Assembly (NCBI GenBank): GCA_029941865.1
Contig: JAPYTO010000002.1
Location: 1-64,000, forward strand
Length of the DNA: 64,000 bases
Source of the DNA: Fuerstiella sp.
Lineage (GTDB): Bacteria; Planctomycetota; Planctomycetia; Planctomycetales; Planctomycetaceae
Direction of reading: 5' to 3'
In this document: positions 3-44,366 of the stretch, one piece after another
Position numbering within the stretch: position 1 is the stretch's first letter
Layout: every line of letters begins with the position of its first letter
The notes under the pieces: model-generated
What the model saw: only the letters and a program-made list of their open reading frames with translations
Told to the model about the DNA's origin: nothing
Databases searched by the model: none
Program-made: the position numbers and the translations under genes

Positions 3-1517
<1,515 letters not shown>

Positions 1518-1601
1518 AATCGTTTACTCTTTCTCGTAAACCGTTCCGAGCCGCGGGCGAGCCCGTTGCTGTGGTCAGAACGCAGCCATCGCACTCCTGA
1601 A

Positions 1602-3314
1602 TCAGCGGACTGCGCTGTCGTGATCAGAGATTTCGTAGACTCGCCAGATATCGTTCCGGAACACTGGCGCTGCTTCAAATGGTCCCAGTCGCCGCGTGAG
1701 GACGTAGTTGCAACCTGTTTGCTGTCGCAGTCGCTCCAGGTCCGCGTCGTCAAACCGGCCATCCTGAAATGACTCGTTGGCCCAGCCGTGAATGGTCCAC
1801 AGTCGCTGATTCCATCCCAGGATCCCCTCCGTGTCCTGAGGGCAGTCTTTAATGCAGACATATTCAGCCCGCTCCGCAAACCACTTGAAAGCGAACGACT
1901 CGCGAGGCGTGAAGACCAGAGCATCCTGAGGCGTGTTGTGGCGAATCCAGTCGCAGGCAGACTTCCAGTCGGCAAAGTGTTTGCGGCTGTAGCCGGCAGG
2001 CGTCATTGGACGCTGTGATAATGCCGCCATGATTACAAGACCGGCGGACACGAGAGTCACGCCGCCTAATAACCAATTCCCTCCGCGGTTCGGTCTTCCA
2101 GTCGCAGAACTCTCAGGGACTGCATTCGGGGTCCCAGGTGTTTCCCCCGGTCGTCGCACGACAGTGTCAAGAAGGCCGGCGACCACCAATGCCGTTGTCA
2201 TGGGCAGTAACGCGTCAAATAACCGAAACGGGTAGAATTTCAACACGGCGGCCCGCCATTGCCAGTCGGGCATGTCGCGGGCGAGGCCGGAGTGCCAACC
2301 AACAACCACACCTGCCGCCGCAATGATCGCAGAAGCGACCAGCAAACACAGACACGGCTGCCACGCGGGGGGCCGTGTTGACTGAGGCTGCAGCCTTTGC
2401 AGTCCCACAAATCCCGCGATGCATACACCGGAAAGAACGAGAGTGTGAATCCATGCCCTCGCTGGAAACGTGCCGGGATCGAGATGGTGGGCAAGTCGCC
2501 AGAAGACCTGAATGTAGTTTGCCCGTTCGATTTGAGCAGCGGGGGCATCGCCGGATGTGAGCAACAGTAGTGCCGGCACCAGCCCCGGCAGCGACACGAC
2601 GAACGCCACCGTCGCAAACGACAGACCGTCCAGCACCAGGGCAGTCATGGTGCGTTTTGGCGAACCTTCGGACGGAACACCACGAAATGGAAACATGGCC
2701 GCTTCACTCAGCGCAACGCCAATGCAGAACCATAGACCAACGACCGGGTGACAGGCGACGCTCAGGCCGGCACACACGCCCGACACGGCGTAACGGCGTC
2801 GAGAGCCTGCCTGCAGTGCGTCCAGCCAGAACGACATCGCCAGCAGAGCAAAGCCGTAGGCTGCGACCTTACCTTCCAATCCGCCGACAACCCACTCGCC
2901 GGAGAAGTTCCCGGTCATGGCAATGCCGCAGAAGCAGCATGCCGCCAACACAATTGCGCAGGATGAAAGTGACAGACGCCGACCAAGTGCCACCCAGGCC
3001 AGTCCGAACAATGTCAGACTGATGATTCGTCCGACAATTGCAACAACGGCTAACGGCAGAACCTGAGCGGCTGCTCCGAACAACGCGAAGAACACGACAT
3101 GTGCATTCGCCGAATGGAGAAAGAGATCGCGTGAACACCACTGAGCGTCGTAGAACGCCCGCGCCTTGCACAGGTAATGTGGCTCGTTGACACCGGGAAT
3201 GGGAACGCGGCAAAACGAATACAAAACGAAGACACAGCACACCAGCACCATGGTGGCAGCGTTTCCTGCTTTGCGATCGGGACGCGTCGCGTCGTTCGGT
3301 GAATCGGCCTTCAT
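1602..3314 (-). CDS. Multi-pass membrane protein of unknown function
   Basis: 570 aa ORF with many hydrophobic segments and a soluble C-terminus. Confidence 0.8.
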   Translation of the reverse strand: MKADSPNDATRPDRKAGNAATMVLVCCVFVLYSFCRVPIPGVNEPHYLCKARAFYDAQWCSRDLFLHSANAHVVFFALFGAAAQVLPLAVVAIVGRIISLTLFGLAWVALGRRLSLSSCAIVLAACCFCGIAMTGNFSGEWVVGGLEGKVAAYGFALLAMSFWLDALQAGSRRRYAVSGVCAGLSVACHPVVGLWFCIGVALSEAAMFPFRGVPSEGSPKRTMTALVLDGLSFATVAFVVSLPGLVPALLLLTSGDAPAAQIERANYIQVFWRLAHHLDPGTFPARAWIHTLVLSGVCIAGFVGLQRLQPQSTRPPAWQPCLCLLVASAIIAAAGVVVGWHSGLARDMPDWQWRAAVLKFYPFRLFDALLPMTTALVVAGLLDTVVRRPGETPGTPNAVPESSATGRPNRGGNWLLGGVTLVSAGLVIMAALSQRPMTPAGYSRKHFADWKSACDWIRHNTPQDALVFTPRESFAFKWFAERAEYVCIKDCPQDTEGILGWNQRLWTIHGWANESFQDGRFDDADLERLRQQTGCNYVLTRRLGPFEAAPVFRNDIWRVYEISDHDSAVR

Positions 3315-5105: not shown

Positions 5106-5861
5106 TTACCGCGTCGAGCGTGAGCGGTGCCAACCGACCTGACGGATTCCCGAGCTCTGTCTGATCGGGAGAACTCTTTGTGACGACTGACCGGTCACTG
5201 GCGGCAGAAACTCTTCTGACGGCCGCCGCGCTGGATCAACGTCACGACGATCACTGGCAGGTGGTGCGGACAATGGTGGCAGGTACGGGATTGTGTTTTG
5301 GAGAGCGCCGCTGAATGGTGAGTTGGCCGGGGGAGGGGTCGGAAAGCGGTCGATTGCTCGTCCCGGTGGACAGAATGTGCCGGTGGCGGTCGGGAGACTG
5401 GGTTCCAGTCGACGGCGGTCCACTTCCAGCAATGGTCCATAGGTTAATGGTGCATGCGCACGCTGTATTTCCGCGCTGTGCTGCACCTGGGCCAACGGAT
5501 CACTGTACGGCACGATTCGGGGCAGCAGAGTTTTCACGAGAGGAACATTGACCGTCTGCGGCAACTGCAGCTGCTCGTCCTCATCGATCATTTTCTGTAG
5601 CACACGGGCCGCGTCCGGATCGACGAGCTCTCCGCCCGGTACGGCACGTCCTGACGATAGGGGATTGTCGATGATCTGCGGGGCCAGCAGATCGTTGATC
5701 GGGCTGTTGACATCTACATGGTCCGCGGCAGTCACCTGCTCGTCAGGCCGAGGCTGTGGTGAGCGTCGCCGCTGACTTTGAATCGGGCTGTCACTCAAAT
5801 CCTGCGGAAACGTTTCCTGCCACGCGCCGACCTCTCCCGAACCCAGCAGCATCACACCCAT
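5106..5861 (-). CDS. Hypothetical Pro-rich protein
   Basis: 251 aa ORF, low-complexity Pro/Ser-rich. Confidence 0.5.
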   Translation of the reverse strand: MGVMLLGSGEVGAWQETFPQDLSDSPIQSQRRRSPQPRPDEQVTAADHVDVNSPINDLLAPQIIDNPLSSGRAVPGGELVDPDAARVLQKMIDEDEQLQLPQTVNVPLVKTLLPRIVPYSDPLAQVQHSAEIQRAHAPLTYGPLLEVDRRRLEPSLPTATGTFCPPGRAIDRFPTPPPANSPFSGALQNTIPYLPPLSAPPASDRRDVDPARRPSEEFLPPVTGQSSQRVLPIRQSSGIRQVGWHRSRSTR

Positions 5862-12423: not shown

Positions 12424-12506
12424 ACTACAGCGTTTCACGCTGACTTGTGGCCGCGAAGAACGATTTTCAATAGCACTTTGGTTGCCCCCACGAGCCAGTA
12501 TCGTCC
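12424..12506. repeat. Dispersed intergenic element family 1, copy A
   Basis: 'ACTACAGCGTTTCACGCTGACTTGTGGCCGCGAAGAACG...GTTGCCCCCACGAGCC'; similar to copies near 32327 and 41637. Confidence 0.6.
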
Positions 12507-12525
12507 ACGACAATAAGTAATCTGC

Positions 12526-13629
12526 TTAGCCGCGTATGACGGGCCAGACGTCAACTTTTTCTGCGCCCCGGTAGATGTGGATGTGTCGATGCATCAGGAT
12601 GGTGTGATCTGAATAGCCCACCACCAGGCGGACCGAATCGCCGATCTTCAGGTCACGGGCGGTCCCTTCCAGCGAAAGGACGGCGTGCTCGGCGCTCAGG
12701 GAATCGATTGTGGCCCCGGTCACATCGAGCACTTCCGCAGGGTGAACGACAGGGTTGACGGCTTTTCTCCCACAATTCAGGACGGCTCGATCCAGCGAGG
12801 GCCGCGAAACCACGTCCGCGGTCAGAGTCAGAGCGGGCTCAACATCCTGAAGACCGCAGGCCTGGGTGTAGAAGAGATCTCCGAAGATTCCGCCTCCGGC
12901 CTGTAGTTCTGTCACTGCCTCGTGTTGTCCGGTGATCCAGAAGGAACCACTCCCTCCCGCACTCACAAAGTCGCAGCACACGCCTTCGTGCTGCATCGCA
13001 TCCCGGGTTTGTTCCAAAGCGTTCATGGCGTCAAAAATGGCCTTCTGTTTTTCCGCCGGATCAGCAATTGTCAAAAGGTGTCCTTCGTAGCCCATGATGC
13101 CAACCACCGATATGCCCGGCAGCTGGTCTGCTGCGACGGCCAGGCGGGTGGCGTCAACGCGGGGACGAACTCCGGTTCGCTGCATGCCAATATCGATGTC
13201 AATCAGCACCTGAAACTCGACACCGGCAAGTTGCGCGGCAGCTGAGAAGCGTTCCGCCTGCACATAGTGATCGATGGTCACCAGCAGGTTTGTCTGCTTT
13301 GACGCGGCGGCCAGACGGTTCAGCTGTGCTTCGGCCACGGCGATGTGGGCCAGCAGGACTGATGGTATGCCCGCAGTTGCCATCACTTCAACTTCTGCGA
13401 CGGTGGCCGCTGTCACCCCGCACGCACCGTACTGCACCAGCGTCTTCGCAATTTTCGGCTGGCTGTGCGCTTTGACGTGGGGACGCCACAGCTTGCCGAG
13501 GCTCAGAACTTCCTTTCCGATTCTGGTGGCATTGCGTTCCATCACTTCGAGATCGAGCCGTAGTTCGGGCATATGCTTGACTGGCCTTAATGAATTCCGG
13601 CCAGTGCTCGACAGGGTCGTGGTGGCCAT
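12526..13629 (-). CDS. D-threonine aldolase-like / alanine-racemase-fold PLP enzyme
   Basis: 'LGKLWRPHVKAHSQPKIAKTLVQYGACGVTAATVAEVEVMATAGIPSVLLAH' PLP-barrel signature. Confidence 0.88.
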   Translation of the reverse strand: MATTTLSSTGRNSLRPVKHMPELRLDLEVMERNATRIGKEVLSLGKLWRPHVKAHSQPKIAKTLVQYGACGVTAATVAEVEVMATAGIPSVLLAHIAVAEAQLNRLAAASKQTNLLVTIDHYVQAERFSAAAQLAGVEFQVLIDIDIGMQRTGVRPRVDATRLAVAADQLPGISVVGIMGYEGHLLTIADPAEKQKAIFDAMNALEQTRDAMQHEGVCCDFVSAGGSGSFWITGQHEAVTELQAGGGIFGDLFYTQACGLQDVEPALTLTADVVSRPSLDRAVLNCGRKAVNPVVHPAEVLDVTGATIDSLSAEHAVLSLEGTARDLKIGDSVRLVVGYSDHTILMHRHIHIYRGAEKVDVWPVIRG

Positions 13630-28992: not shown

Positions 28993-31900
28993 ATGAGGTT
29001 TCAAATGGCAAGGATTGCCCACGTGAGAACATCGCACGAATGGCGGACAATCATCAAGGGAAGTGTTTCCTTATGCACTGCCCTGTGCCTGCTTTTGAGC
29101 CTGGAATGTCCTGCCCAACAAGCGGTCCCTTCGCCGCGGGCCAGCGTGCTGACGATCGTGGCGGCAGAGGACCTGCCAGCGGCATTCTTTGCGGGACCGG
29201 TTCCAAGGACTGCGGCAATCGCTGACGACGCGTCGCTAAACGATGTGTGCAGTGTCGGCCGCGATGTCTGGGCCGTCGGCGACCGAGGAGTGATCGTTCG
29301 CAGCCATGACGGCGGCAACACCTGGCAGACTGCGGTCCTGCCCTTTGAATGTAGTTTGCAGAGCGTTTGTTTCCTGACGAATCAGATCGGCTACGTCGCC
29401 GGAGCTCGGTTTGATCACTTCGCAAGGCGGTATCATGGAGTTCTCTTGAAAACCAGAGATGGCGGTGACACCTGGCAGCACGTTGCTTCGACGGGGGCCG
29501 CTGTCACAACCCCGGGAGTTTCGATCTCCGGTGTTCATGCCGGATCGGATTTGCCGCCGCTTAGTTACGTCCGATTCTTCGACATGGAAAACGGAGTCGC
29601 CATCGGTCGATTGACGGTGGCAGGCCAGTCGAGCGTGCTGCGGACCGACGATGGCGGCCGAACGTGGAGGTCACTGAAGACGGAGGAGCCGAGTGGACGG
29701 TGGACAGCGGGAGCGTTTCTAACTCCCGGTGACGGCATTGTTGTCGGTTCGGGCAGCGCTTACGGAGCTGTGGTTGGCGAGCAACTCGTAACCCTGGCAA
29801 GGCCGCTTCGCACGTTTCGGGAAGTTAACGGAGCAACACTTTCACGTGACGGTCATGGCTGGCTGGTCGGCGATGGGGGATTCCTGCTGCAAAGTCGGGA
29901 CGGAGGAATCTCGTGGGTGCTGCCCGTGGGGCGACTGCCAACTCGACTCAACGACGTGGTTGATTTCTCCAGTGTTGACAGGAATGGGACGAACGTTTGC
30001 ATCGCCGGAAGTCCTGGCAGCGTTGTCCTGCACAGCAATGACGATGGCCGATCGTGGACGTTTCGGCGGGTCTCTTCGGCTGCTCCCATACGACAGGTGC
30101 GATTTATCGACACGACGACAGTCCTTGCTGTCGGAGCATTTGGCGTAATCCATCGGTCACAGGACGCTGGTCTGACATGGGCTCCCGTCCGCAACGGCGA
30201 TTATCGAGCGGCCATCATGTGTCTGGTCACGAACCCGGAAGATGTCTCGCTACGAATGCTGGCCAGCATCAGCGGCGACCAGGGTTTTCGGTCAGTGGTG
30301 GTACAACCATCCGCACGCCTGGCCAGCGAGAACATTGACGATCAATTGGCCGCCCGCGAAATGCAGGTTGCGACAGCACAGGTGGGGGGAAACCAGTTTG
30401 TTCAGGACTGGATGTTTGCACGCACGCAACCGTTGCAGGAACTTGTGCGAGACGAGCTGTTGAAGTCGTGGGCTGGACAGACCGATGACCGCGTTAGTGA
30501 ATTGCTGCCGCAACGTCTGGCAGAAACGATCCGAATCTGGCGACCGGATGTGATTTGCATCGAACGTTCTGCTGATGTCGACGAAATTGCTGATGTCTGG
30601 CTGCAGGCCATCGACGTCGCCATGAACATCGCTTCCGGTCGAGATCAGCGGGGTGCCATTCTGGATTCGGTCGGACTGGCACCATGGCAGGTGACCCGCG
30701 TATTTCGGGGCCTCACGAATAAGGAGACATCACCGCTGAGCTTTCCGGGCGATACGCTGCTGCCAAATCTGGGGACCACCGCAGATCTGATTTCAAACCA
30801 CTGCCAGCGGCTGACTCCTTCGGTAGCGATCGCCGCTGCCACAGCTGGTGAACCTGTTGCCTCGTCGTACGCAGCGCATTCGCATGCATCTACCGCAGCA
30901 GCCACGCCGACACATTTTTTTCCCGGTGGAATGGCGGCGCCCGGCTCAGCGTCCCGGCGGTCGTTGACTCATGTAAGCCCGGAAGAACGTAGACGGCTGG
31001 AACAAATCAGCCAGCGGGAAAAGACGCAACGTGCGGCACTCACCGGACATCTGTCTCAGCGAACAACGCCGCTCAGTCTGATTGCACATCTGCAGACCCT
31101 GGGGGACGACCTGCCGAACAGTCTCGCGTTGCAGCAACTGCAGCATCTCGTGGATCTTTACAAATCCGAAGATAATCTCGAAGGCATGATCGCTGTCCTG
31201 AAGGAACTGATCAATCGCTTTCCCCGGACGCCGGAGTCGGCCCTGGCGGCGGAACAGCTGTTTCAGTTTTATTCCTCAGAAGAACTTCGTTTTCTGAGAC
31301 GCAACGTCAGCGAAGAATACGCCGGGGACGGTATTCAGCCGGTCGGTTATCGGCTGCCGGCGGCAGCGGCGGGGAGTATTCCCATCGTTCGTTCCGGCAC
31401 TGGCACGCTGCTCTGGAATCCGTCCGGTTCTGATCGGCGCGCGGTCGACGTTCAGTGGAACGAGAATGCGGACCGAGCGTTGCGAGTCCTGCGTTCGTTG
31501 GCACCGGAGGTCGCGAATTCTCCGCAACTGCTTCTGCGGCAGGCGGCCAACGTCCGTCGCGGCGGTGAGTTTGGAGCGAACAGTACGCTGCTGGCCAAAG
31601 CGGCAGGGGGCAGCGATCTGTTTGCCCTGCTGGCTCGAGCCGAACAGGGAGCCGTACATGGGGCAGCGGAAACGACCGTGCCGACGATCAACCTGCCGAA
31701 GGCAAGGGCCAAACCTGTGCTGGACGGCCAGCTGACCGAGCAGTGCTGGCAGGACGCGATTGAGCTGCATCTGGCAGTTTCGAATGATGGCTCGGTCGTC
31801 ACGACCGCCGACTGCCTGATCATGCTGGCATGGGACGACGATCATGTTTACGTCGCCGGGCGAATGGAACACTGTCCCGGTCACTCAAACCAAATGAACC

Positions 31901-32298
31901 ACACCGTCGATCGATTTCACGACGCAAAGCACGGCACGCTGGACCGCGTGAATATCACTTTTGATGTCGACCGTGATTACACAACCGGCTTCGAATTCGT
32001 CATTGATGAAAGCGGTCAGACAAGCGAACGGTGCTGGACGGCTGGAAACTGGAATCCGCAATGGTTTGTCGACGCAGAAGCCGACGAAACATCGTGGCGT
32101 TTCGAGATGGCGATTCCCCAGGCAGAACTTCAGACCACACCGCTTCGTCCGGGGAGCCTGTGGGGTATCCGAATTCGGCGACTGGCCCCCGGAGTCATCG
32201 AACAAACACTGAAAGACCCAGAGACGGAAAACGCCGTGGCTCACACAAATGGACATGGTCTGTTGAGATTCATTCGAAACCGAAAACAGTCCCGGTGA
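28993..32298 (+). CDS. Secreted Ycf48/BNR-like beta-propeller protein with C-terminal CBM9/DOMON-like domain
   Basis: Repeated 'SHDGGNTWQTAVLP', 'TRDGGDTWQHVAS', 'RTDDGGRTWRSLK', 'SRDGGISWVLPV', 'SNDDGRSWTF', 'SQDAGLTWAPV'; C-terminus 'AKPVLDGQLTEQCWQDAIELHLAV...LIMLAWDDDHVYVAGRM'. Confidence 0.85.
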   Translation: MRFQMARIAHVRTSHEWRTIIKGSVSLCTALCLLLSLECPAQQAVPSPRASVLTIVAAEDLPAAFFAGPVPRTAAIADDASLNDVCSVGRDVWAVGDRGVIVRSHDGGNTWQTAVLPFECSLQSVCFLTNQIGYVAGARFDHFARRYHGVLLKTRDGGDTWQHVASTGAAVTTPGVSISGVHAGSDLPPLSYVRFFDMENGVAIGRLTVAGQSSVLRTDDGGRTWRSLKTEEPSGRWTAGAFLTPGDGIVVGSGSAYGAVVGEQLVTLARPLRTFREVNGATLSRDGHGWLVGDGGFLLQSRDGGISWVLPVGRLPTRLNDVVDFSSVDRNGTNVCIAGSPGSVVLHSNDDGRSWTFRRVSSAAPIRQVRFIDTTTVLAVGAFGVIHRSQDAGLTWAPVRNGDYRAAIMCLVTNPEDVSLRMLASISGDQGFRSVVVQPSARLASENIDDQLAAREMQVATAQVGGNQFVQDWMFARTQPLQELVRDELLKSWAGQTDDRVSELLPQRLAETIRIWRPDVICIERSADVDEIADVWLQAIDVAMNIASGRDQRGAILDSVGLAPWQVTRVFRGLTNKETSPLSFPGDTLLPNLGTTADLISNHCQRLTPSVAIAAATAGEPVASSYAAHSHASTAAATPTHFFPGGMAAPGSASRRSLTHVSPEERRRLEQISQREKTQRAALTGHLSQRTTPLSLIAHLQTLGDDLPNSLALQQLQHLVDLYKSEDNLEGMIAVLKELINRFPRTPESALAAEQLFQFYSSEELRFLRRNVSEEYAGDGIQPVGYRLPAAAAGSIPIVRSGTGTLLWNPSGSDRRAVDVQWNENADRALRVLRSLAPEVANSPQLLLRQAANVRRGGEFGANSTLLAKAAGGSDLFALLARAEQGAVHGAAETTVPTINLPKARAKPVLDGQLTEQCWQDAIELHLAVSNDGSVVTTADCLIMLAWDDDHVYVAGRMEHCPGHSNQMNHTVDRFHDAKHGTLDRVNITFDVDRDYTTGFEFVIDESGQTSERCWTAGNWNPQWFVDAEADETSWRFEMAIPQAELQTTPLRPGSLWGIRIRRLAPGVIEQTLKDPETENAVAHTNGHGLLRFIRNRKQSR

Positions 32299-32326: not shown

Positions 32327-32408
32327 TTGCAGCGATTTTCGCTGACTCATGGCCGCGGTTGACGTGTTTTGCCAGCAGAACGACTGCCCCCACGAACCAG
32401 AACCGGTT
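32327..32408. repeat. Dispersed intergenic element family 1, copy C
   Basis: 'GCAGCGATTTTCGCTGACTCATGGCCGCGG...CTGCCCCCACGAACC'. Confidence 0.55.
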
Positions 32409-33034
32409 CCGTCCGTTTGTAAATTGCTCCAGCAATCCGCCGTATTCGTCGCCTGCAGACGCACCTGCGGCGTCCTGCTGTCACTCTGTACTTTGATGAA
32501 CTCTGCGTCTGGCTGAATGAAAACCTGTGGAGCGAACCATATTTGCCGACAATGGAGTTGTGCAGGTGCAGCGATGGTGTTGGCGACTGCTGAGGGGGCT
32601 TCAAAGAAGAGGACGCGGCGACCACGAATGATCTGAAAGCAGCGGGCACCCAAGCCGCTGGCACAGAGAATTCGGTACTTCGGCGGTCAAAAATCATGCC
32701 GCAAGGATCGGGAACACGGCATAAGTCGTGATTCGTCGGCTCTGGGCCAGAAAACGGTTGCAAGTTTGGTTTGGGTCAGGGAGGCCGATTGGCCCGACTT
32801 ACGCGTCAAAAAACACAGCGTTTTCGCCTTCAAGTTGCGCGGAAAGACCCGAATTTACAAGGTTGGGGCATTCCGTGACCGATCAGTCCACAAGAAGGTG
32901 AACTTGAGGATTTGCATCTCGGACCATTTGCCGCAAAACTATGGGGAAGTCGTTCTTCTCTCAGGCGTCCGCGCCCCGGTACTCCACGTGTGTTCTTTCC
33001 ACTTCCTCCTGATTCTTCATAGTTTTCAGTCAAC

Positions 33035-41172: not shown

Positions 41173-41634
41173 ATGCGATGTCCCTTCTGCAAACACGACG
41201 AAACCAAAGTCATCGACTCGCGAAACAGTCAGGATTTTTCCATCCGACGCCGCCGCGAATGTCTGGAATGCAGTCGTCGTTTTACGACTTATGAACGGAT
41301 CGAAGAATCACCAATTAAGGTGATTAAGAAGGATGGATCCCGGGTACCGTTCGACCGAAACCGAATACGAGCGGGTATCGAAAAGGCCTGCTACAAACGC
41401 CCCGTCAGCAACGAACAGATCGATCAGGTCGTTTCTGAAGTCGAAGCCGCCATTTATGAAGACGGTCTGCGCGAACTTCCATCCCGACAGATCGGTGAGT
41501 TGGTCTTCAGTGCACTGCGCGACCTGGACAAAGTTGCGTTTGTCCGTTTCGCATCTGTGTATCGTGAGTTCCAGGACGTCAACGACTTTGTCGAGGAGCT
41601 GCAACCGATTCTGAACGACCTTGATGAAAAGTAA
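41173..41634 (+). CDS. nrdR: Transcriptional repressor NrdR
   Basis: '[44 protein letters not shown]' zinc ribbon plus ATP-cone '[24 protein letters not shown]'; ATG at 41173. Confidence 0.97.
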
Positions 41635-41636
41635 CA

Positions 41637-41718
41637 CCTACAGCGTATCACGCTGACTTGTGGCCGCGGCGAACGTTCTTCCACTAGCGAGAGTTGCTCT
41701 CCCACGAGCCGCACGACC
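41637..41718. repeat. Dispersed intergenic element family 1, copy B
   Basis: 'ACCTACAGCGTATCACGCTGACTTGTGGCCGCGGCGAACG...CTCTCCCACGAGCC', starting right after the nrdR stop. Confidence 0.6.
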
Positions 41719-44366
41719 ACATCTTTTCGAACACTGCTCTAGTCGAGGCTGCGGAATCCGTGCCCGCCAAACTTCCGGAATCAGAACGCAGCGGCAGAGT
41801 CCTTCGGAAAATTAACGACTGGTTTCGTTCGCATCTTTGCAGCAATCAGTCTGAGCGGGGCGGCAGCTTTCGAGCATTAGCTGGAATTCGTGTTGCCGGG
41901 CATGCTCTTACCCGGGTGTTTGTTTGGCCCCGGCTGCCGCTAAGTGGGTGGACGGCGGTGGCTCTTGTCGGCGGAATAGTCCTTGGCTCGGTCGTGCCAC
42001 CCGTACCTCTGGTGTTGCTTGCAGCAAGTCTGGCGTGCCTGTTCGCAGCAGCATTTTTCAGGCGACGGAATCCTCGTGCGTGCAGTGTGCTTTGTGTGCT
42101 GACGGCGATTGTGTTGCTGGGTGCCGTACGTTGGCAACTGCATCAGGGACCGTCTGCACGCACATCGCTGAAAGATTTTTGCGGTGACGGCCCCGTAACC
42201 CTGACACTGAGGGGACACATCGCGTCCGTTCCCGCTGTTCATGTGCGACCTTCCTCCAGCACCGCGCCACGACTGTATGGGTCCGCCGAGCAATCACGTT
42301 TCCTTGTGTCGGCGACGTCTGTGATCACTTCGACGGGGGAGCGCGATATTGGCGGCAACTACCAGGTCTACGTCGATGGTGACATAACCGGTGTTCTGCA
42401 CAGCGGTGACGAAGTGATGCTGACGGGCCGATGGGATTGGCCTGGTCCTCCCGGCAACCCCGGAGAATTCGACTATGAGCAGTTTCTGACAAGGCGTCAG
42501 ATCTTCGGGCTGTTCTTTGTGAAACATCCTGCTGCAATTCGCGTTGTCACTTCGTGCAGCAGGTGGTCGCCAGGCTACTGGGTCAGCGAACTGCGGCAGA
42601 AAGCGCGTTCCGTTCTGGTGACTGCCGTGCCGGACCGCGTACGAGGAATTGCGTTGGCGTTGTTGCTGGGAAATCGCCATCAACTGCCGTCCGAGACGGA
42701 AGATGCGTTCATTGGCAGTGGCACGATGCACTTGCTGGCTATTTCCGGACTGCACGTCGGGATCCTGTGTGCTTTTTTACTGAGCATCTGTCATCTTCTG
42801 ATCATTCGTCGCAGTTGGGCGCTGCTGTTGACAGCGGCGGTGTGCATCATTTACGCCATGCTCACTGACCTGCGTCCTTCGGTTCTCCGCGCCACCGTTT
42901 TCTTTGTCATCTTTGTGATCGCTCAGCTGGTGCGGCGCAATCAGAGTATTGTCAGCCTGCTGTCCGTGACGGCGATCATCATGGTCAGCGCCCAACCCCA
43001 TCTGGTCTTCGACACGGGAGCCTGGCTGTCGTTTCTGTCGGTGGCGGCTCTTGGCTGGGTCTCCGGGCGCAGGATTCCGGACGACGTGCACCACGACGCG
43101 CCCGCCGATGCCCTGAGTGCTGGTGAAAAACTGCGTGACATGCTGAGCGGTCTGTCGAAGCGGCTCGCACATCGCTTGCAGCAAATGTTGTCCATCCTGG
43201 CACTCACGACACCGTTGGTTGCGGCAACGTTTCATGTGATTTCACCGGTTGGAGTGATCGTGAATGTGCTGCTGATCCCGCTGACCGCACTGACACTGTG
43301 TGCCGGTTTCGTGCTTCTGGCAGCAGGGATGCTGCACCCTTCACTCGCTCATGTCGCGGGGCCCGTGTTTTCGTGGCTACTGACGGCCATGACCAGGATC
43401 GTTGAAGCGACGTCCAGCCTGCACCTGAGTCACGTTTACGTCGCGGACGTTCCGGAGTGGTTTCTACCGCTTTACTATGTGCTGGTCCCCACAATTCTTC
43501 TGATCCGCTGGCGCCCGCTGAAACGAATCGCCGTTCTCGGCCTGTATTGTTCCATCGCTGTGGCATTCTTTGCGGCGACACAGCCAAATACATCGCGCGA
43601 ACTGCGATGTACTGTGCTGGACGTGGGCCACGGCAGCGCAGCTGTGCTGGAGTTTCCCACCGGTGAGGTTTTTCTGGTCGATGGCGGCGCCCTGAATCGG
43701 GGAGAACGTACTGCGGACCTGATCTGTCGCTATCTCTGGCATCGCGGTTATCGAAGCCTGAACGGGATCCTCATCTCGCATGCGGATGCCGATCACTACA
43801 ACGCCGTGTCCGGCATTCTGAAACGCATACCGGTATCGGAACTTCTGACATCCCGAGACTTCGTGACGTCAGACTCGGCATCCGTCCAGTCGGTGATTCA
43901 GCTGGCGGGCGACATGGGCACGCCGGTACGAATTCTGCACAACGGTGACTCAGCGCAAATGGGAATGTCATTCCTGCGGTGCGTTCAGCCTGACTTGCGG
44001 CTGCTGCCACAGGATGCCGACGACAATGAAAAATCGCTGGTTGTCGTTGCTGAGCATGCCGGACGTCGCATTGTGCTGCCGGGAGATCTGGAAGGCAGCG
44101 GCAGTCGGAAGGTGTTTCTGGATGTTGGGCCGACGGATGTTCTCATTAGTCCTCACCACGGCTCGCCGACTGCGAACACGGCCGTGCTGGCCGGTTGCCT
44201 GACTCCGGATACCGTGATTGTGAGTGCTCGAAGTTCAGTAAATGCAGACAGACTTCGAAGCGTTTTCGGTGAAGCCGCTCTCTTTTATACCAGCGACTTT
44301 GGTGCCGTTTCGGTCTCGATCGCCGCCAACGGGCGGTTGTCCGTCACGCCCTGGCGGGATCTGTAG
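41694..44366 (+). CDS. comEC: ComEC/Rec2 family DNA uptake channel protein
   Basis: 'ALALLLGNRHQLPSETEDAFIGSGTMHLLAISGLHVGIL', 'TVLDVGHGSAAVLEFPTGEVFLVDGG', 'SHADADHYNAVSGIL', 'LISPHHGSPTAN'; true start probably downstream of the TTG at 41694. Confidence 0.93.
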   Translation: MLSHEPHDHIFSNTALVEAAESVPAKLPESERSGRVLRKINDWFRSHLCSNQSERGGSFRALAGIRVAGHALTRVFVWPRLPLSGWTAVALVGGIVLGSVVPPVPLVLLAASLACLFAAAFFRRRNPRACSVLCVLTAIVLLGAVRWQLHQGPSARTSLKDFCGDGPVTLTLRGHIASVPAVHVRPSSSTAPRLYGSAEQSRFLVSATSVITSTGERDIGGNYQVYVDGDITGVLHSGDEVMLTGRWDWPGPPGNPGEFDYEQFLTRRQIFGLFFVKHPAAIRVVTSCSRWSPGYWVSELRQKARSVLVTAVPDRVRGIALALLLGNRHQLPSETEDAFIGSGTMHLLAISGLHVGILCAFLLSICHLLIIRRSWALLLTAAVCIIYAMLTDLRPSVLRATVFFVIFVIAQLVRRNQSIVSLLSVTAIIMVSAQPHLVFDTGAWLSFLSVAALGWVSGRRIPDDVHHDAPADALSAGEKLRDMLSGLSKRLAHRLQQMLSILALTTPLVAATFHVISPVGVIVNVLLIPLTALTLCAGFVLLAAGMLHPSLAHVAGPVFSWLLTAMTRIVEATSSLHLSHVYVADVPEWFLPLYYVLVPTILLIRWRPLKRIAVLGLYCSIAVAFFAATQPNTSRELRCTVLDVGHGSAAVLEFPTGEVFLVDGGALNRGERTADLICRYLWHRGYRSLNGILISHADADHYNAVSGILKRIPVSELLTSRDFVTSDSASVQSVIQLAGDMGTPVRILHNGDSAQMGMSFLRCVQPDLRLLPQDADDNEKSLVVVAEHAGRRIVLPGDLEGSGSRKVFLDVGPTDVLISPHHGSPTANTAVLAGCLTPDTVIVSARSSVNADRLRSVFGEAALFYTSDFGAVSVSIAANGRLSVTPWRDL

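Follow-up and report, generated by a model that had tools for sequence, protein, structure and literature searches.

A TA-inserting, high-copy repeat with a covarying end hairpin in Fuerstiella and other Planctomycetaceae: very probably a MITE of the IS630/Tc1-mariner type

The window, i.e. the complete stretch of 64,000 nucleotides of Fuerstiella sp. that was analysed, contains three intergenic loci that share a short hairpin, a conserved core, and a second conserved block further downstream, which raises the question of what these repeats are and why their hairpin changes on both sides of the stem. The original prediction regarded them as a dispersed structured element under selection on RNA or DNA structure. 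The hairpins and both flanking motifs were indeed found at all three loci. Furthermore, the search with a covariance model that had been proposed (model R1, constructed from 37 Fuerstiella copies, with window copies A to C included and a decayed fourth copy excluded) retrieved copies A to C with E-values of 8e-30, 4e-26, and 1e-24, respectively, plus the decayed copy at 1.3e-7. The following features are involved:

12425..12530, + strand: copy A, YTA plus about 100 bp plus TAR (model R1, E=8.4e-30; alignment)
12428..12442, + strand: left-end hairpin of copy A, CAGCGT-TTC-ACGCTG (sequence)
12443..12455, + strand: conserved core of copy A behind the hairpin, ACTTGTGGCCGCG (sequence)
12486..12496, + strand: second conserved block of copy A, CCCCACGAGCC (sequence)
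32327..32432, + strand: copy B (model R1, E=4.4e-26)
41638..41742, + strand: copy C (model R1, E=1e-24; empty site in two sister genomes)
1514..1620, - strand: fourth copy, decayed (model R1, E=1.3e-7; sequence)

Copy A, predicted at 12424-12506, starts in the expected region but extends further, as the element reaches to about 12530. Its right end lies within the stop codon of the gene at 12526-13629 (- strand), coding for a D-serine dehydratase-like/alanine racemase N-terminal protein. Its core (12443-12455) is an imperfect complement of CCACGAG at 12488-12494, and the block at 12486-12496 falls within the half of the copy that corresponds to the left end of a Fuerstiella IS630 element. Copy B (hairpin at 32330-32344) starts 28 bp past the stop of the gene at 28993-32298 (+ strand) and represents a subfamily with an AATTT/ATTTT loop and a CATGG core. 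Copy C (hairpin at 41641-41655) is flanked by nrdR, whose stop codon is at 41632-41634, and by a ComEC-like gene (Pfam). The right end of the decayed copy, which the original prediction had missed, lies within the TAG that terminates the sigma-54 gene (rpoN; 3-1517, + strand).

The consensus consists of YTA, followed by CAGCG-loop-CGCTG...CCACGAG...AACTGCTC, followed by TAR. It is non-coding and sharply bounded, with a body of about 100 bp (mode 100 bp; exactly 100 bp in 131 of 200 aligned copies and 98-102 bp in 189 of them), or 106 bp when the flanking YTA and TAR are included. From the left, the hairpin CAGCG-loop-CGCTG is followed by the core ACTYRTGGCCGCG, a variable middle part, CCCACGAGCC, and the right end GTAAACTGCTC. 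Several subfamilies are set apart by their middle part, and chimaeric copies, as read from the sequences, combine the head of one subfamily with the body of another. The sequence outside the aligned copies is random, apart from the YTA before, the TAR after, and a slight extra preference for T and G behind the TAR. The inverted-repeat match of the ends is weak in Fuerstiella (left TACAGCG versus right TAGAGCAG / CTGCTCTA), terminal inverted repeats are clear in G010, G066, and G087 (TTAGAGCAA... / ...GCTCTAR), and in several genera the outer hairpin arm is itself the terminal repeat (GAGCAA-TTGCTC). A minimal palindromic form was encountered in L218 (around 5450-5520), where two left ends stand head to head around a 3-bp spacer (CAGCGTATTACGCTGACTTGTGGCC GCG GGCCACGAGTCAGCAGGAACTGCTG), the second hairpin having a different stem (CAGCAG/CTGCTG).

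The left-end pattern CAGCGNNNNNCGCTGACTNNTGGCCGCG matched the whole 8.04-Mb genome 237 times (up to three mismatches), with 118 forward and 119 reverse matches, and a control with the reversed pattern gave no matches in the same genome; the repeats are well outside what chance would yield. The shared + strand orientation, noted in the original prediction, is thus a chance property of the window. Six of the eight Fuerstiella genomes carry the element: the five further ones contain 37 to 291 matches each (up to two mismatches; 58 genomes scanned), and the remaining two yielded one match with two mismatches and no match, respectively. A scan of public genomes retrieved almost only records of Fuerstiella and Planctomycetaceae. 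A genuine copy in a record labelled as an uncultured Mesorhizobium MAG (L225; CATMOC010000297.1, 5164-5269) probably belongs to a planctomycete contig put in the wrong bin. A search of 118 relatives from 87 genera with the covariance model from 37 copies detected the element in nine genera, all from one family, and a set of 298 genomes of the class likewise yielded it only in the Planctomycetaceae. Beyond Fuerstiella, it occurs in at least eight other genera of this family, with at least 150 copies in G064, 85 in G011, and 33 in G027. Some of the copies of G064 (4.7 Mb) are clustered or in tandem (L318, L322, and L306). On contig C1 of G004, a complete chromosome, the copies listed at 4.5-5.5 Mb appeared by eye to be mostly on the minus strand and those at 8.5-8.9 Mb mostly on the plus strand. 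The closest pairs among 83 copies examined in the present genome are at most 97% identical and thus give no sign of recent activity.

Comparison of orthologous sites showed that the element is mobile DNA that inserts at TA within YTAR sites and duplicates the TA. The site after nrdR, occupied by copy C in the window (GTAACACCTA[100 bp]TAGTCGAGGCTGCGG; right flank TAGTCGAGG), is uninterrupted in the sister genomes G007 (GTAATCCCTTGTCGAGGCTGCGG / GTAATCCCTTGTCGAGG) and G001 (GTAAGACCTTGCCAAGGATGCGG / GTAAGACCTTGCCAAGG), indicating that the target was most simply CTAG, of which the TA was duplicated. Similarly, a copy in L077 is nested inside another one (GTGTTTTA[reversed element]TAATAGCAG, as opposed to GTGTTTTAATAGCAG in uninterrupted copies) and was inserted at TA, and G064 contains two copies arranged head to tail with one CTAG in common. 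Insertion at TA with TA duplication is known for IS630 transposases, for which work on a CTAG preference has been cited as well (PMC2170065).

The position of the copies relative to genes was scored for 160 copies, using a home-made gene caller on this and related genomes pooled. In agreement with the predicted intergenic nature, 158 of the 160 lie between genes. The right end coincides exactly with the stop codon of an opposite-strand gene in 38 copies, where the terminal G of the element restores TAG; in four others the element is reversed at the stop codon, and the reading frame of the gene continues into it for a few codons, up to a TGA. About a quarter of the copies thus lie in stop codons, which account for about 7% of the available YTAR sites; this excess stems from target preference, from selection, or from a combination of the two. 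In the window, two of the four copies, namely copy A and the decayed copy, are stop-codon insertions. Apart from these insertions, the 160 copies displayed no orientation bias towards flanking genes, with gene 3' ends pointing at the element in similar numbers on its two sides (84 and 94). Selection may have purged insertions within genes, and those in stop codons may have survived because the first base of the element rebuilds TAG.

A candidate relative was found in the sister genome G001, namely the IS630 element L236 (about 998-2030), with terminal repeats CTTAGAGCAATTTCCGGAA / TTCGGTAAACTGCTCTAAG. The right end of the element is matched both by the terminal repeat TAGAGCARTTTMC of this IS and by its sub-terminal sequence over about 45 nt. 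Indeed, the left 45 nt of the IS aligned to the reversed right end with a best score of 22, compared with a maximum of 14 for shuffled sequences, and the element covariance model, which contains no IS sequence, matched the ends of L236 and of L232, a second copy of this IS in G001 with an 89% identical transposase (E=7e-5, 4e-4, and 0.026). This type of IS is about 1.03 kb long, only two near-full copies were seen, and the two overlapping frames of L236 encode HTH_Tnp_IS630 and DDE_3 domains. The splitting of its transposase (1073-2013) into overlapping frames of 139 and 219 amino acids suggests programmed frameshifting. Two other IS630 elements of the genus (L233 and L237) were discarded as relatives, as their terminal repeats are unrelated to the element, which makes the match to L236 specific. 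No matching ends were recognised in IS630 elements of other genera (L343-L363). At the opposite side, the right end of the IS (GAATCATGCGG) resembles the left core of the element (GACTCATGGCCGCG) by eye, although the left-end alignment did not score above shuffles. If both ends are related in this way, the element would have arisen from the IS by internal deletion, the origin of its left half being unproven.

The TA duplication, the nesting at TA, the random flanks, and the right end matching an IS630 left end indicate that the element is very probably an IS630/Tc1-mariner-type MITE of the family Planctomycetaceae. It may have originated as an internally deleted IS630, and an IS630 transposase acting in trans would recognise its ends and move it by cut and paste. 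Against this reading, a conserved internal core (GTGKCCGCG...CCACGAG) together with a covarying hairpin in several genera is not what one expects of plain MITEs. In addition, neither a DDE_3 transposase nor any match to the L236 transposase was found in the present genome (612 contigs), making present mobilisation here doubtful; given such an assembly, loss of the helper and failure to assemble it are both possible. Likewise, no DDE_3 transposase was found in G003, G011, G027, and G079, despite many element copies, so that the helper must have been lost, have escaped assembly, or belong to a different family. An autonomous copy among the repeats was sought, but odd copies such as L063 and L106 look truncated, and no transposase lies beside L063. 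A DDE_3 sequence adjoining a copy in L034/L242 was a fragment that showed no link to the element ends.

The hairpin was the part for which covariation had been claimed. Across genera, the claim stood: the left stems read CAGCG/CGCTG, AAGCG/CGCTT, GAGCG/CGCTC, GACCG/CGGTC, AACAC/GTGTT, and GAGCAA/TTGCTC, and five of the six stem pairs changed on both sides. The three window copies, by contrast, give a single covarying base pair, as does Fuerstiella as a whole, and the genus alone is therefore insufficient to demonstrate covariation. For the whole structure, 54 cells with changes on both sides were counted versus 11.7 in shuffles, albeit in an alignment fitted to the structure of the model, which favours this result. 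Sliding the stem partners destroyed the pairing, and 62 of 74 copies had a perfectly paired stem of 5 bp or more, compared with 3% after shuffling. A second helix (CTYRTGG/CCACGAG) is conserved but displayed no compensatory pair in the Fuerstiella set. Stem mismatches showed no strand preference (seven G-T versus 12 A-C), which is compatible with RNA, single-stranded DNA, a double-stranded palindrome, and palindrome correction alike.

As the sequence drifts, the left hairpin may be kept palindromic either by a folded or palindromic end that helps mobility or by template switching that repairs imperfect palindromes. In quasipalindrome correction, a polymerase that switches templates uses one arm to rewrite the other, so that any change in the first spreads to the second. 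This explanation of the covariation, which dispenses with selection and is compatible with an IS630-type MITE, deserves serious consideration, though at somewhat less than even chances: it accounts for mutual arm changes without strand preference among the mismatches, for the large share of perfect stems, and for a second helix that, with its arms far apart, lacks compensatory pairs in Fuerstiella, whereas each genus or subfamily mostly has a fixed stem sequence of its own, a pattern that inheritance from a few founders would explain equally well. It is rather unlikely that the hairpin and the GTGKCCGCG/CCACGAG core form a structure needed by the mobilising enzyme or by an RNA of the element, with the folded end having replaced the terminal repeat as signal and the family-wide spread resting on it.

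A different mode of transposition would be that of a single-strand (HUH/Y1) transposase, as for IS200/IS605 PATEs or REP/RAYT, with the end hairpin as signal and TA as cleavage context. The one-sided hairpin with compensatory changes, the asymmetric element ends, and the Y1 genes in six of the eight Fuerstiella genomes would suit such a mechanism, and a TA duplication is indistinguishable from insertion beside a TA carried by the element. However, no enrichment was found near 30 Y1 loci (two copies in about 90 kb, about as expected), G007 harbours 104 copies and no Y1 match, the element ends match IS630 repeats, and the hairpin is preceded by YTA instead of the 5' GTAG or CGTC tag of REPs (PMC3733652), rendering this mode of transposition very improbable. 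Y1/RAYT was rejected as helper, its genes showing no association with the element. Lastly, a structured regulatory RNA (small RNA, 3'-UTR element, or terminator) dispersed by chance, for which the intergenic copies, the covarying stem, the conserved core, and the many copies near stop codons could be adduced, is hardly credible, given the equal use of both strands, the gene 3' ends facing the element from both sides, the absence of Rfam matches within the window at the gathering threshold, the empty orthologous site in sister species, the stem mismatches without strand preference, and the lack of a T run behind the hairpin. Of the original prediction, the covariation is supported and the RNA of fixed orientation that it implied is not supported.

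Among known repeats, the IS630-type MITE proposed here is most readily compared with RUP of Streptococcus pneumoniae, which has been proposed to be moved by IS630-Spn1 and which is similar in size (about 107 bp) and copy number (about 110), in having TA at its ends and terminal repeats resembling those of an IS630 element from its own species, and in its predicted secondary structure (PMC2229807, PMC3049150). RUP comes from an unrelated host, and no shared sequence was seen. Moreover, the planctomycete element possesses a self-contained, covarying left hairpin, spans many genera, and lacks a detectable helper in most hosts searched; the Fuerstiella IS630 itself (L236 and L232) differs from it by a two-frame transposase and the absence of an end hairpin. 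In ERIC and Correia/NEMIS, a long stem covers most of the repeat, instead of a hairpin at one end. Their length of about 100-160 bp, TA ends, and RNA-forming palindromes are comparable (PMC2229807), whereas their hosts and sequences are different. REP/GTAG palindromes with RAYT, reported in Planctomycetes too, are likewise high-copy intergenic hairpin repeats (PMC3733652), but they measure 20-40 bp, carry a GTAG or CGTC tag, and are tied to a Y1 transposase, none of which was found for the 100-bp element. No earlier description of the element was retrieved from the literature searched, and the description of Fuerstia marisgermanicae mentions no transposon or MITE. The family is apparently undescribed and, by analogy, comparable to RUP, its covarying end hairpin being the unusual part.

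The Planctomycetaceae thereby gain a high-copy MITE family of the kind represented by RUP or ERIC, which can be of use for annotation, strain typing, and the understanding of assembly breaks caused by repeats. As the end hairpin persists while the terminal repeat drifts, it becomes testable whether miniatures of the IS630/Tc1-mariner type need a folded end or whether replication errors repair their palindromes. Finally, the excess of stop-codon insertions rebuilt as TAG shows how such elements can settle harmlessly at the ends of genes.
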